This document shows positions 4,261-57,166 of a stretch of DNA of 64,000 nucleotides, piece after piece. Origin of the DNA: Alphaproteobacteria bacterium (GTDB lineage: Bacteria; Pseudomonadota; Alphaproteobacteria; Rhizobiales; Aestuariivirgaceae); assembly GCA_028868695.1 (NCBI GenBank), contig JAGWTZ010000011.1, forward strand, positions 1 to 64,000, given 5' to 3'. Made by a program: the position numbers and the translations under genes. Positions within the stretch are counted from its first letter, which is position 1. The number at the start of each line of letters is the position of its first letter. The notes under the pieces were generated by a model that saw only the letters and a list, made by a program, of their open reading frames with translations, was not told where the DNA came from and did not search any database.

Positions 4261-4412
4261 CCCTTCCCCCACTGGGGGAAGGTGGCCGAAGGCCGGATGA
4301 GGGCCAATGCGCAGCATTGGTCTTTGCCGCAACACATGCTGAACCAAAGCCCATCTGCTGCGCAGATGGCCCCCATCCGTCCTTCGGGCACCTTCTCCCA
4401 GGGGGAGAAGGG
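4261..4412. repeat. Inverted-repeat element (gene-free) between hisH and hisA
   Basis: About 152 bp bounded by two inverted copies of the same palindromic unit. The left copy at 4261-4303 and the right copy at 4371-4412 each contain a CCCTTC.CCC / GGG.GAAGG hairpin followed by GCCGAAGG or GCCCGAAGG and CGGATG(A)GGG. Inside are two further hairpins, one based on CCAATGC/GCATTGG (4304-4320) and one on CCATCTG/CAGATGG (4351-4369). The terminal units match those flanking the DUF559 gene at 10924-11411, but here there is no gene. The hisA ribosome-binding GGAG (4414-4417) lies directly after the right end. Confidence 0.85.
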
Positions 4413-9478: not shown

Positions 9479-10771
9479 TCAGGCCCCGGCGATGCGCGTC
9501 ACATCGGCGCCCACGCCGGAGAGCTTGCCTTCAAGGTCTTCAAAGCCACGGTCCAGGTGATAGACACGGTGCAGCATGGTTTCGCCCTCGGCGGCGAGGC
9601 CGGCAATGACCAGCGAGACCGAAGCGCGCAGGTCTGTCGCCATCACGTCCGCGCCGGTGAGCTTGGCCACGCCGCGCACTTCGGCCATGTCGCCATGCAG
9701 GTGGATGTCGGCGCCCAGGCGGGCCAGTTCCTGCACATGCATGAAGCGGTTTTCGAAGATCGTCTCGCGGATGTGGCTCTTGCCCTTGGCCTTGGTCATC
9801 AGGCCCATGAACTGGGCCTGCAGGTCGGTCGGGAAGCCGGGGTAAGGATCGGTCGTCACATCAACGGGCAGGATGTCCGAGCCATTGCGCTTGATGCGCA
9901 TGCCTTCATTGGTGGTGGTGATGTCGATGCCGGCGCGGCGCAGCGTGAGGATCACATCCTCCAGCGTATCGGGCCTGGCGCCCCGCAGGGTGACGTCTCC
10001 GCCAGTCATGCCGGCTACCATGGCATAGGTGCCGGTTTCGATGCGGTCGGCGATTACGGTGTGTTCGGCGCCATGCAGGGACGTGACGCCGGTGATGTGC
10101 AGCGTGCGCGTGCCGATGCCTTCAATTTTGGCGCCCATCTTGACGAGGCATTCAGCGACGTCGGTGATTTCGGGCTCGGTGGCGGCGTTTTCGATGATGG
10201 TTTCGCCATGGGCCAGAACCGCGGCCATGAGGGCCGCATGGGTGGCGCCAACCGAGACCTTGGCGAAGGAGATGTGCCCGCCCTTCAGGCCCTTCTTGGC
10301 CTTGGCGATGACATAGCCCTGGTCAATCACACATTCGGCACCGAGCTTTTCCATGGCCTGCAAATGCATGTCCACCGGCCTGGTGCCGATGGCGCAGCCG
10401 CCGGGCAGAGACACCTTGGCCTCGCCCATGCGGGCAATGAGCGGCCCCAGCACCCAGAAGGAGGCGCGCATTTTTGACACGAGATCATAGGGTGCGGTTG
10501 TGTCGACAATCGTCTTGGCGGAGATGCGCAAGGTTTCGCCTGCCCCGCCCGCCTGGCCGGCGCGCTTTCCTGCCGTGGTGATATCCACGCCATGGTTCTG
10601 CAGGATGCGTTGCAGGCGCAGCGCGTCCACCAGCCGGGGAACATTGTGCAGGGTGACGGTTTCCGGCGTGAGCAGCGGAATGATCATCAGCGGCAAGGCC
10701 GCGTTCTTGGCGCCGGAAATGTCGATCACGCCATTCAGCTTGTTGCCGCCACGGATGCGGATACGGTCCAT
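9479..10771 (-). CDS. murA: UDP-N-acetylglucosamine 1-carboxyvinyltransferase
   Basis: First committed step of peptidoglycan synthesis, adding enolpyruvate to UDP-GlcNAc. ATG 10771 gives 430 residues starting [20 protein letters not shown]. The fosfomycin-target cysteine is present: Cys126 in [17 protein letters not shown]. Other motifs are [10 protein letters not shown] and [10 protein letters not shown]. The upstream AAGGGGAA is a good ribosome-binding site; the longer frame to 10816 is not supported. Heads the operon murA-DUF2948-UPF0262-phosphatase. Confidence 0.97.
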
Positions 10772-10923
10772 CAAATTCCCCTTCTTGGGCGGCCCCGGAC
10801 GGGTCGCCAGCCCCATATTTGCTGCGTTTGGCAGGTTACATAGAGCCTAACCCGCCCAAATCAAAGGCGGTTTTTTGCAGGTGGCAAATGGCGGGAATGA
10901 GGCAGGGGGGAGGCTTTACACTT

Positions 10924-10974
10924 CCCTTCTCCCGCGCATAGCGTGGGAGAAGGTGCCCGAAGGGCGGATGAGGG
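10924..10974. repeat. Left 51-bp inverted palindrome of the DUF559 unit
   Basis: Contains a hairpin (CCTTCTCCC with GGGAGAAGG) followed by a smaller GCCC-GAA-GGGC hairpin and GGATGAGGG. It is the inverse of 11361-11411; the inner 30 bases are identical and the loop differs at only a few positions. The ATG within its GGATGAGGG end (10968) is the likely start codon of the DUF559 gene, and GAAGG just before can serve as ribosome-binding site. Confidence 0.9.
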
Positions 10975-11354
10975 AAAGCAAGAAAAGGCTGGTTGGTATT
11001 TTGGCATATCAAAACAAGAATGCCAGCAGTTTTGCCAGAAGGCTGCGCAAGATGGACACCAATGCTGAGCAGCTTCTTTGGTCAGCCTTGCGGGCACGAA
11101 GATTGGGCGGCCTGAAATTTGTCAGGCAATTGCCACTTGGGCCATTTATCGCAGATTTCGCTTGCAGGGAGCACCGACTAGTCATCGAAGTGGATGGTGA
11201 AACTCATGGAGATGCAGGCGAAGCGGCCTATGACCAGCAACGGACCAATTACTTGAATAGTTTGGGGTGGCGAGTTGTCCGCTGCACCAATCTCGATGTT
11301 TACAAAAACCTTGCCGGAGTCTGCGACACAATTCTCGCCGCTCTCACCAGTTGA
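10968..11354 (+). CDS. DUF559 endonuclease-domain protein (Vsr / PD-(D/E)XK-like)
   Basis: 128 residues from ATG 10968. The family pattern is clear: a basic N-terminal helix with RRLRKMDTNAEQLLW, then LRARRLGGLKFVRQ, GPFIADFACR, LVIEVDGETH and a C-terminal YLNSLGWRVVRCTN. The D...ExD residues resemble the catalytic set of Vsr-like nucleases. Function is not established; cleavage of DNA is inference from fold. Base composition is visibly poorer in GC than flanking murA and pheA, suggesting acquisition. The gene is enclosed by 51-bp inverted palindromes, and its start codon lies in the left one. An alternative start is ATG 11052 (MDTNAEQLL). Confidence 0.88.
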   Translation: MRESKKRLVGILAYQNKNASSFARRLRKMDTNAEQLLWSALRARRLGGLKFVRQLPLGPFIADFACREHRLVIEVDGETHGDAGEAAYDQQRTNYLNSLGWRVVRCTNLDVYKNLAGVCDTILAALTS

Positions 11355-11360
11355 ACCAAG

Positions 11361-11411
11361 CCCTCATCCGCCCTTCGGGCACCTTCTCCCATGCTTCGCA
11401 CGGGAGAAGGG
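11361..11411. repeat. Right 51-bp inverted palindrome of the DUF559 unit
   Basis: Reverse complement of 10924-10974 with the same hairpins. It begins 6 bp after the DUF559 stop and ends 7 bp before the pheA stop, so it may also act as a barrier at the 3' ends of these two convergent genes. No obvious target-site duplication is visible outside the pair. Confidence 0.9.
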
Positions 11412-11418
11412 AAAGCGG

Positions 11419-12279
11419 TCAGCCCTTCCTTCGCTTCGCCAGTTCGGCGCGGAAGGGGCTGGCGGGGTATGTGCCCAGCACGCGGAGGTAGGAGGTGAAG
11501 AAAGCCAGCTCCTCCAGCGCCAGTTCCAGCGGCCTGTCAGCCGGGTGGCCCTCGACATCGGCATAGAACTGGGTGGCGTTGAACTGGCCTTCAAGCTGAT
11601 AGCTTTCCAGCTTCGTCATGTTGATGCCGTTGGTGGCAAAGCCGCCCATGGCCTTGTAGAGTGCTGCCGGCACATTGCGCACGCGGAAGACAAAGCTGGT
11701 CATCACAGGGCCATTGTGCGGCTTTGCGTCAGCGCGCTTCTTCGAGAGGATCAGGAAGCGCGTGGTGTTGTGCTCCTCATCCTCGATGTTGCGCTCGGCG
11801 ATCTTGAGGCCATAGGTTTCTGCGGCCAGCCTGGTGGCGATGGCGGCGCGGGTTTTATCGCCCGATTCCGCCAGCTCACGCGCGGCACCTGCGGTATCAG
11901 CCGCCACCACGGGCTTGAGCTTGTGTTTCTTGATGGCCTTGCGGCACTGGCCCAGGGCATGCACATGGCTGTGCACTTCCTTCACATCCGACAGCTTGGC
12001 GCCGGGCACCAGCAGCAGGTGAAACTCGATGCGCAGGAAATGCTCGCCCACAATCCACAAGCCGCTTTCGGGCATCAGATGGTGCACATCGGCCACGCGG
12101 CCCGCCAGGGTGTTCTCAATGGGGATCATGGCCAATGCGGCCTTGCCGGATTTCACCGCCTGGAAAGCCTCCTCGAAGGTGGCGCAGGGCAGCGGCTCAT
12201 GGTCCGGATAGGTTTGCACGCAGGCGATGTGGGAGTTGGCGCCGGGCTCTCCCTGATAGGCAATCTTGGGCTTGGGCAT
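11419..12279 (-). CDS. pheA: Prephenate dehydratase
   Basis: Converts prephenate to phenylpyruvate for phenylalanine synthesis. 286 residues from ATG 12279 (a GTG one codon earlier is possible). The N-terminal catalytic domain has AYQGEPGANSH, IPIENTLAG and the signature TRF (173-175, in NTTRFLILS). The C-terminal ACT domain has the allosteric LESYQLEG and TQFYADVEG. No chorismate mutase domain is present. It follows the kdsB-like gene by about 4 bp, as in other rhizobia. Confidence 0.96.
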   Translation of the reverse strand: MPKPKIAYQGEPGANSHIACVQTYPDHEPLPCATFEEAFQAVKSGKAALAMIPIENTLAGRVADVHHLMPESGLWIVGEHFLRIEFHLLLVPGAKLSDVKEVHSHVHALGQCRKAIKKHKLKPVVAADTAGAARELAESGDKTRAAIATRLAAETYGLKIAERNIEDEEHNTTRFLILSKKRADAKPHNGPVMTSFVFRVRNVPAALYKAMGGFATNGINMTKLESYQLEGQFNATQFYADVEGHPADRPLELALEELAFFTSYLRVLGTYPASPFRAELAKRRKG

Positions 12280-12283
12280 CACT

Positions 12284-29437: not shown

Positions 29438-29464
29438 CACCCTTCTCCCGGCGGGAGAAGGGTG
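29438..29464. repeat. Solo palindrome before argB
   Basis: Perfect palindrome CACCCTTCTCCC-GGC-GGGAGAAGGGTG, the hairpin part of the unit that ends the DUF559 element, here as a single copy without the GGGCGGATGAGGG extension. Confidence 0.75.
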
Positions 29465-32930: not shown

Positions 32931-32956
32931 CGCCCTTCCCCTGCCGGGGGAAGGGC
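32931..32956. repeat. Solo palindrome before dapE
   Basis: GCCCTTCCCC / GGGGAAGGGC hairpin, hairpin half of the same repeat family as at 4261 and 10924. It lies between the DUF805 stop and dapE. Confidence 0.7.
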
Positions 32957-37304: not shown

Positions 37305-37405
37305 CCGGGAGGTTGGCCTGCGGACGTGACGCTCGCCAACCGGGTCAGGGCCGGAAGGCAGCAGCCCCAACGAGCCTGTTATGGGTTGCTCGTCCAGCCT
37401 CCCAC
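37305..37405 (+). ncRNA. ffs: Signal recognition particle RNA (small bacterial SRP / 4.5S type)
   Basis: About 100 nt. Terminal stem GGGAGG (37307-37312) pairs with CCTCCC (37398-37403). The conserved apical domain is intact: GGTCAGG, GCCGGAAGGCAGCAGCCC (37345-37365 area), with the GGAA tetraloop and the asymmetric AGCAGCC loop that bind Ffh. Immediately upstream of dnaX, its normal place in rhizobia. Exact ends are inferred from the stem. Confidence 0.93.
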
Positions 37406-57013: not shown

Positions 57014-57166
57014 TACTGTTATTCCTTATTGGTTCTTCGCTGTCGCTTGAAGCACCGACCCTATGGACAGCATCCCCTTTGAACCTTGCGCGCCCGGCCC
57101 TATTGCCAAACGCCCTGTCGGGGACGCAGGCAGCAATCCGGTGTCTGCCCGCTCGTATCTTTCTTC

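Follow-up and report, generated by a model that had tools for sequence, protein, structure and literature searches.

A DUF559 nuclease gene between inverted palindromes: a probable small mobile element and a candidate disperser of short palindromic repeats

In the window, that is, the whole stretch of 64,000 nucleotides of alphaproteobacterial DNA analysed here, a short gene of the DUF559 family lies between two inverted palindromic arms (Table 1). The arms are 53 nt each, are 92% complementary and are separated by 386 nt, which confirms an earlier sequence-only reading that had described a DUF559 gene between near-identical inverted palindromes. The same reading had remarked that the GC content of the gene is lower than that of its surroundings, and this also holds (0.509 for the gene versus 0.629 for the window). 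When followed from the inside to the outside, each arm consists of CCCTCATCC, a small hairpin and the stem CCTTCTCCC..GGGAGAAGG. DNA folding gave z values of -5.3 and -4.0 for the two arms, each of which forms the long hairpin and the small one. The open reading frame between the arms was identified as DUF559 by a match to the PF04480 profile (E 2.6e-34). It is the sole gene there, and no transposase fold of the DDE, HUH, serine or tyrosine type was found between the arms.

Table 1. Positions of the unit, of its neighbours and of related repeats in the window.
Feature	Position	Strand	Remarks
Left inverted palindromic arm	10922..10974		Hairpin at 10925-10953 plus small hairpin; GGATGAGGG toward the gene at 10966-10974
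DUF559 gene, 128 aa	10968..11354	+	Vsr/EDxHD-type nuclease fold, conserved residues intact
Right inverted palindromic arm	11361..11413		CCCTCATCC toward the gene; hairpin at 11382-11410 outermost
pheA-like gene	11419..12282	-	Stop codon a few bases from where the unit begins
murA-like gene	9479..10816	-	Opposite side of the unit; start codon is a candidate, with an MDRIRIRG start further in
Related repeat as an inverted pair without the gene	4261..4412		About 150 bp, non-autonomous type; hairpins outside, CCCTCATCC-type ends inside
Hairpin CCTTCTCCC..GGGAGAAGG alone, without the CCCTCATCC half	29441..29461		Partial copy or plain terminator
Hairpin CCTTCCCCC..GGGGAAGG alone, without the CCCTCATCC half	32934..32954		Partial copy or plain terminator

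The strict pattern of this repeat was found in 20 copies in the source genome (3.09 Mb in 101 contigs) and the reversed control in none, so that the repeat of the window is not a product of chance. Four of the 20 copies adjoin DUF559 genes, namely three of the six that the genome carries. Related repeats devoid of the gene had been proposed at three places of the window: the one at 4261-4412 was confirmed and is laid out like the unit, but those at 29438 and 32931 are hairpins that lack the CCCTCATCC half. Palindromes of other sequence at 57162 and 5975 (CTCCCCCTTGTGGGGAGGG type; CCCTGAGGCGC..) may represent further families. The window also contains a bacterial small SRP RNA at 37309-37404.

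When the DUF559 protein was compared with its homologues, twelve positions (E, W, Q, D, F, E, D, G, H, D, R and R) were found to be conserved at 99-100% in 212 proteins. Among them, the residues E, D, E, D, H and D can be read as the EDxHD motif. The predicted model of the window protein (pLDDT 85.7) matched first 3hrl, the protein NGO0050 of N. gonorrhoeae, then 3r3p (E 1.7e-4), which is the catalytic domain of the homing endonuclease I-Bth0305I, and then Vsr; 3hrl was also matched by sequence (E 1.6e-19). In N. gonorrhoeae, a DUF559 gene, presumably that of NGO0050, has the same repeat on either side, in direct and not inverted orientation (locus L247). YcjD of E. coli K-12 (L253) is likewise a DUF559 protein; its gene is located between sapF and fabI, with CCCTC-type repeats downstream only. 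YcjD was earlier known as a PD-(D/E)XK protein, according to an excerpt of PMC1189080. In a section of PMC9403480 devoted to inteins, a DUF559 gene is assigned to the EDxHD homing endonucleases, and this assignment, as it stands in that section, agrees with a homing-like reading of DUF559. In Caulobacter, the DUF559 protein VsrA triggers a DNA damage response when ScmA cytosine methylation is lost, which the relevant passages of PMC12907096 interpret as mismatch repair; the response could also fit an active nuclease of a mobile element.

PF04480 matches were present in 32 of 37 genomes of the genus, 122 of 249 of the order and 145 of 398 of the phylum. For each locus, the best inverted match between the 5' and 3' flanks was scored, and the gene was considered as flanked at a score of at least 16. 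In a first set, from which four of 129 loci were dropped for short flanks, 67 of 125 genes were flanked: 40/73 in the genus (counting the window's own unit and genome), 17/28 in the order and 10/24 in the phylum, the order and phylum loci being the best-scoring ones (L163-L216). At the other 58 genes of this set, a flanking inverted pair was not detectable. Displaced controls of the same set gave 0/99, with a maximum score of 15.5. In a second set of 80 further loci, drawn mostly from genomes with several DUF559 genes, 44 were flanked (displaced control 0/78), and in a third set of 80 named loci, which repeats at least eight loci of the first, the figure was 47 (displaced control 0/68). Five of 80 genus matches, weak or fragmentary, were left out. 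The sequence-only reading had staked its case on whether homologues carry palindromes at both ends and whether unrelated genes do so just as often. The three sets indicate that just over half of the examined DUF559 genes carry inverted arms; among ParE genes of the same order, 0/29 were flanked (one of 30 having been dropped).

The palindromes differ in sequence type between sites and follow a common plan. The nearest CCCTCA-type end points to the gene in a ratio of 77:11 upstream and 49:15 downstream (n=208), and the motif occurred in 5 of 399 displaced 150-bp windows. The 107 units with strong arms consist of terminal inverted repeats round one gene, with a median length of 559 bp. Among the strict copies listed for genomes G000-G015, 34 of 36 neighbouring pairs within 200 bp are inverted, all five pairs in -+ orientation at 200-1500 bp hold a DUF559 gene, and the sole +- pair at such a distance consists of nested palindromes with no gene noted. 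At locus L483 (G004:C137), palindromes of two types are nested, their inverted arms are long and no gene was noted, so that the locus is possibly a gene-free composite.

It had further been claimed that gene and repeat are physically linked because the left repeat supplies the start codon. In the window, the left repeat does contain ATG 10968. However, this is no general rule: the 86 units with this motif upstream are distributed over the three frames as 20/24/42, and the motif is in frame and open in only 12 of them. A start codon supplied by the repeat was thus rejected as a general design.

Another comparison named by the sequence-only reading was that of gene-free copy number with gene presence, and across 249 genomes copy number does follow DUF559. 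Hairpins of the pattern TCTCCCN{3,16}GGGAGARRG were counted in these genomes of the order, a DUF559 match being taken as strong at E up to 1e-20. The reversed pattern gave 0-5 matches per genome, save 10 and 19 in the genome with 426 copies. Genomes with a strong DUF559 match had a median of 26.5 hairpins, and 79 of the 102 had at least five (the other 23 had fewer), whereas the median was 0 in genomes without any DUF559, at least five hairpins being present in 10/127. Genomes with weak matches were intermediate (median 1.5, n=20). In the 20 families that include both kinds of genome, hairpins were more numerous with DUF559 in 18, less numerous in none and tied in two. This link is no echo of the units' own hairpins, since at least five hairpins occur in 19 of the 37 genomes with a single strong match versus 10/127 of those without DUF559 (at least nine in 14/37 and 6/127, respectively); two of the single-match genomes hold 184 and 426 copies. 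In the genus, a stricter pattern gave 0, 0, 0, 0 and 8 copies in the five DUF559-less genomes and was present in 29 of the 32 with DUF559. The ParE control for copy number also showed a trend, with at least five hairpins in 15/35 genomes with ParE versus 4/26 without; when DUF559 was held fixed, the values were 11/16 versus 2/4 and 4/19 versus 2/22, which are small numbers.

These counts bear on the idea that the palindromes belong to a RAYT-driven REP system beside which DUF559 is incidental. Such a system would account for REP-like palindromes and for their frequent arrangement as close inverted pairs. Nevertheless, the source genome contains no Y1_Tnp (PF01797) match, and only 7 of the 37 genomes of the genus have one. 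In the order, RAYT is present in 39/249 genomes; those with RAYT but no strong DUF559 had a median of 0 hairpins (n=21), whereas those with strong DUF559 and no RAYT had a median of 18.5 (n=84). As copy number follows DUF559 and not RAYT, RAYT was rejected as the driver of the palindromes, and we regard this explanation as very improbable.

Palindrome type is also related to the protein. Over 204 units, the similarity of the palindromes increased with the identity of the DUF559 proteins, and the observed correlation was reached in 0 of 300 permutations; 75 pairs in shared contexts were left out, and the statistic ignores repeats shared by related genomes. The proportion of pairs with a flank score of at least 20 was 0.01 below 35% protein identity, 0.04 at 35-45%, 0.08 at 45-55%, 0.26 at 55-65%, 0.71 at 65-75% (n=34) and 0.94 above 75% (n=16). 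Several of the closest relatives of the window protein are flanked by the window's own palindrome type.

In five genomes, similar units were found in different surroundings, the flanks of one site showing no alignment with those of another. In L304/L305 (499 bp, 93.6% identical), homology ends at the palindromes, with seven extra shared bases on one side, and in L204/L319 (572 bp, 87%) it ends within about 15 bases of them; in no other case does homology stop this close to the palindromes at both ends. One end coincides with the palindrome in L074/L077 (675 bp, 87%), the other lying about 25 bases further; in L259/L260/L261 (92-94%) the homologous stretch goes on into a terminal repeat of greater length; and the ends of L310/L311 (619 bp, 97%) do not coincide with palindromes. 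The members of L204/L319 and of L074/L077 are 6-8 kb apart on one contig. Similar units in one genome may be separate acquisitions. Judging from dN/dS values of 0.04-0.10 in six of seven copy pairs (0.41 in L310/L311), most of the copied DUF559 proteins are under purifying selection. Target-site duplications did not exceed chance (3 of 107 units versus 1.5 expected); an 8-bp direct repeat at L204 was not counted as evidence of one.

The duplicated units are hard to square with the view that the palindromes are ordinary terminators or RNA hairpins which happen to lie beside a small horizontally acquired gene. Hairpins are indeed often situated just past stop codons, as at pheA, but the absence of any flanked locus in the flanking controls, the occurrence of similar units within different flanks and the orientation bias of the asymmetric repeat make this view scarcely credible.

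Sites without the unit, for which the sequence-only reading had suggested a search, were found at the pheA-murA junction and at the L204 site. In three distant relatives (G002, G017 and G021; pheA identity 75-80%), pheA is directly followed by murA, with neither unit nor palindrome between; in the 30 loci fetched, murA adjoins pheA only in these three and in the window itself. In the relatives with the highest pheA identity, G019 (92%) and G016 (82%), a palindrome of another family occupies the position of the window's unit, just past the pheA stop (L097 and L098). It is as if the site after pheA had been used repeatedly.

When the two flanks of the L204 unit were joined, the resulting sequence was matched without interruption in 69 of the 119 genomes from the genus that carries this unit (a count from the listing), with spacers of 23-82 bp in the 30 read. 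The match is broken in 47 further genomes. Of the 30 of these that were read, most carry other material, one (G752) carries a DUF559 unit, and six carry gene-free palindrome pairs recognised by eye (L457, L460, L467, L468, L473 and L477); at L452, two hairpins of the type are present at this site with no DUF559 gene. A palindrome similar to the gene-free one of L467 occurs in the DUF559 units L266 and L269, which belong to two other species of the same genus. The pairs in L467, L468, L473 and L477 may be one inherited insertion. At the intergenic site which in G451 holds a DUF559 unit, G650 has a short tandem repeat array (L470).

Gene-free palindromes could alternatively be decayed units, so that copy number would follow the gene trivially, and the units would move by their nuclease with no active REP population. 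The gene-free pairs do have the layout of the unit. However, such decay would have to produce the 184 and 426 copies of the two single-match genomes, and in L467, L468, L473 and L477 the gene-free pairs occupy a site that is unbroken in the 69 other genomes, the units with related palindromes being elsewhere (L266, L269). We therefore consider decay an improbable explanation.

Some units were inherited at one site, as seen for Mesorhizobium loci and for Azospirillum, in which DUF559 occupies a single site in the seven records matched. The E. coli ycjD query was covered to at least 80% in 3362 of 5426 genomes. In the three strains without ycjD that were read, an efflux operon, named eefRABCD in the extract available from PMC12817139, takes its place, so that this site cannot be called cleanly empty. 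For the S. meliloti query, four records reached 80% cover or more, and none of them offered a usable empty site.

At the level of sequence, the mobility of the units is well supported by similar units at several sites with palindromes at or near their ends, by related palindromes for related proteins, by the genome-wide dependence of the copies on the gene, by the gene-free pairs dispersed alongside and by selection on the protein. We infer that the DUF559 nuclease is the enzyme which spreads them. The unit is thus probably a mobile element of about 500-600 bp that encloses a single gene between inverted palindromic ends and is spread, together with its gene-free derivatives, by the nuclease which this gene encodes. 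In such an element, the nuclease's own palindrome would serve as its recognition site, possibly after extrusion as a hairpin or cruciform, and cleavage would take place at the palindrome or at the target. The repair machinery of the host would then fill the break with a copy of the unit or of a gene-free pair, much as in homing or in REP systems, and no recombinase of the DDE, HUH, serine or tyrosine type would be needed. This route is favoured by the lack of target duplications, by the homing-endonuclease fold and by the lack of a second gene in the window's unit.

The leading alternative is that an unlinked factor mobilises the units in trans: DUF559 and its palindromes would be passengers of an unlinked transposase, or would be moved by replication slippage and gene conversion between dispersed repeats, and DUF559 would serve in defence or repair. 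The activity ascribed to DUF559 here is only inferred, the damage response of VsrA, as given in those passages of PMC12907096, fits a repair or restriction role, target duplications are absent and inverted repeats can recombine by themselves. Against this, within families copy number follows DUF559 (18:0, with two ties) and not RAYT, the palindrome type co-varies with the protein, and all five -+ pairs at 200-1500 bp among the copies listed hold DUF559. A passenger role is accordingly judged unlikely.

The wider reading is one that we favour by a little: an undescribed class of mobile elements, extending across the proteobacteria, whose single nuclease of the Vsr/EDxHD fold (DUF559, with YcjD and NGO0050 as relatives) spreads its own unit and gene-free intergenic palindromes, and which would form a second, independent, nuclease-based system for making REPs. 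Genomes of the order hold up to several hundred TCTCCC..GGGAGA-type repeats, for which DUF559 is a candidate enzyme and no described one was found; the DUF559 unit is the best candidate so far for the disperser of a common family of short palindromic repeats. The old question of what spreads REPs in RAYT-less genomes becomes directly testable, and a function can be proposed for DUF559, a largely uncharacterised family present in nearly half of the order's genomes and in E. coli K-12. Should no enzyme other than the nuclease be required, the unit would amount to a self-spreading element of very small size and to a mobile class without a known transposase. In the open-access papers searched, no text was found that links DUF559 to palindromes or mobility in such a way.

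The sequence-only reading had likened the unit to RAYT transposases and their REP palindromes. The comparative tests that it named came out in its favour, but the relation to RAYT stands by analogy only, because the DUF559 enzyme is unrelated to RAYT, and linkage through the start codon is not general. As in REP/RAYT systems (REPtrons, REPINs), a single gene lies between inverted palindromes, gene-free copies are dispersed as inverted pairs, and gene and repeats co-occur genome-wide. In contrast, the DUF559 enzyme is a nuclease of the Vsr/EDxHD fold (PF04480) and RAYT an HUH Y1 transposase (PF01797), the DUF559 gene itself is often multi-copy, and its units end in a CCCTCA(C/T)(C/T)C-type sequence with a G+C-rich hairpin whereas REPs are GTAG-tagged; the arms of the window, with their CCCTCATCC end and CCTTCTCCC stem, have no such tag.

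With the EDxHD homing endonuclease I-Bth0305I, the next-best fold match after NGO0050, the protein shares a Vsr-like fold and conserved acidic and histidine residues. Unlike the genes of homing endonucleases, the DUF559 frame stands alone, occurs at several intergenic sites and has palindromic ends; an Rfam search of the window revealed no intron around it. Vsr, Caulobacter VsrA and E. coli YcjD have the same fold, the last two being DUF559 proteins themselves, but the role described for VsrA is repair and not mobility, and the window protein scored 17.5 bits with the Vsr model TIGR00632, versus a cut-off of 97.85. A classical insertion sequence likewise has terminal inverted repeats round one gene, but DUF559 units show neither target-site duplication nor a known transposase fold.

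Two further repeat classes were considered. The CGTC REPs are an orphan class common in Alphaproteobacteria, with a palindrome of different sequence (CGTCAT(C/T)CC type). As this palindrome was found beside only 2 of 122 DUF559 genes, DUF559 was rejected as their missing partner. Rhizobial RIME repeats have been described without a gene. A DUF559 gene of S. meliloti has CCCCTCACCCTAACCCTCTCCCC..GGGGAGAGGGGACG-type repeats on both sides, which may resemble RIME repeats.
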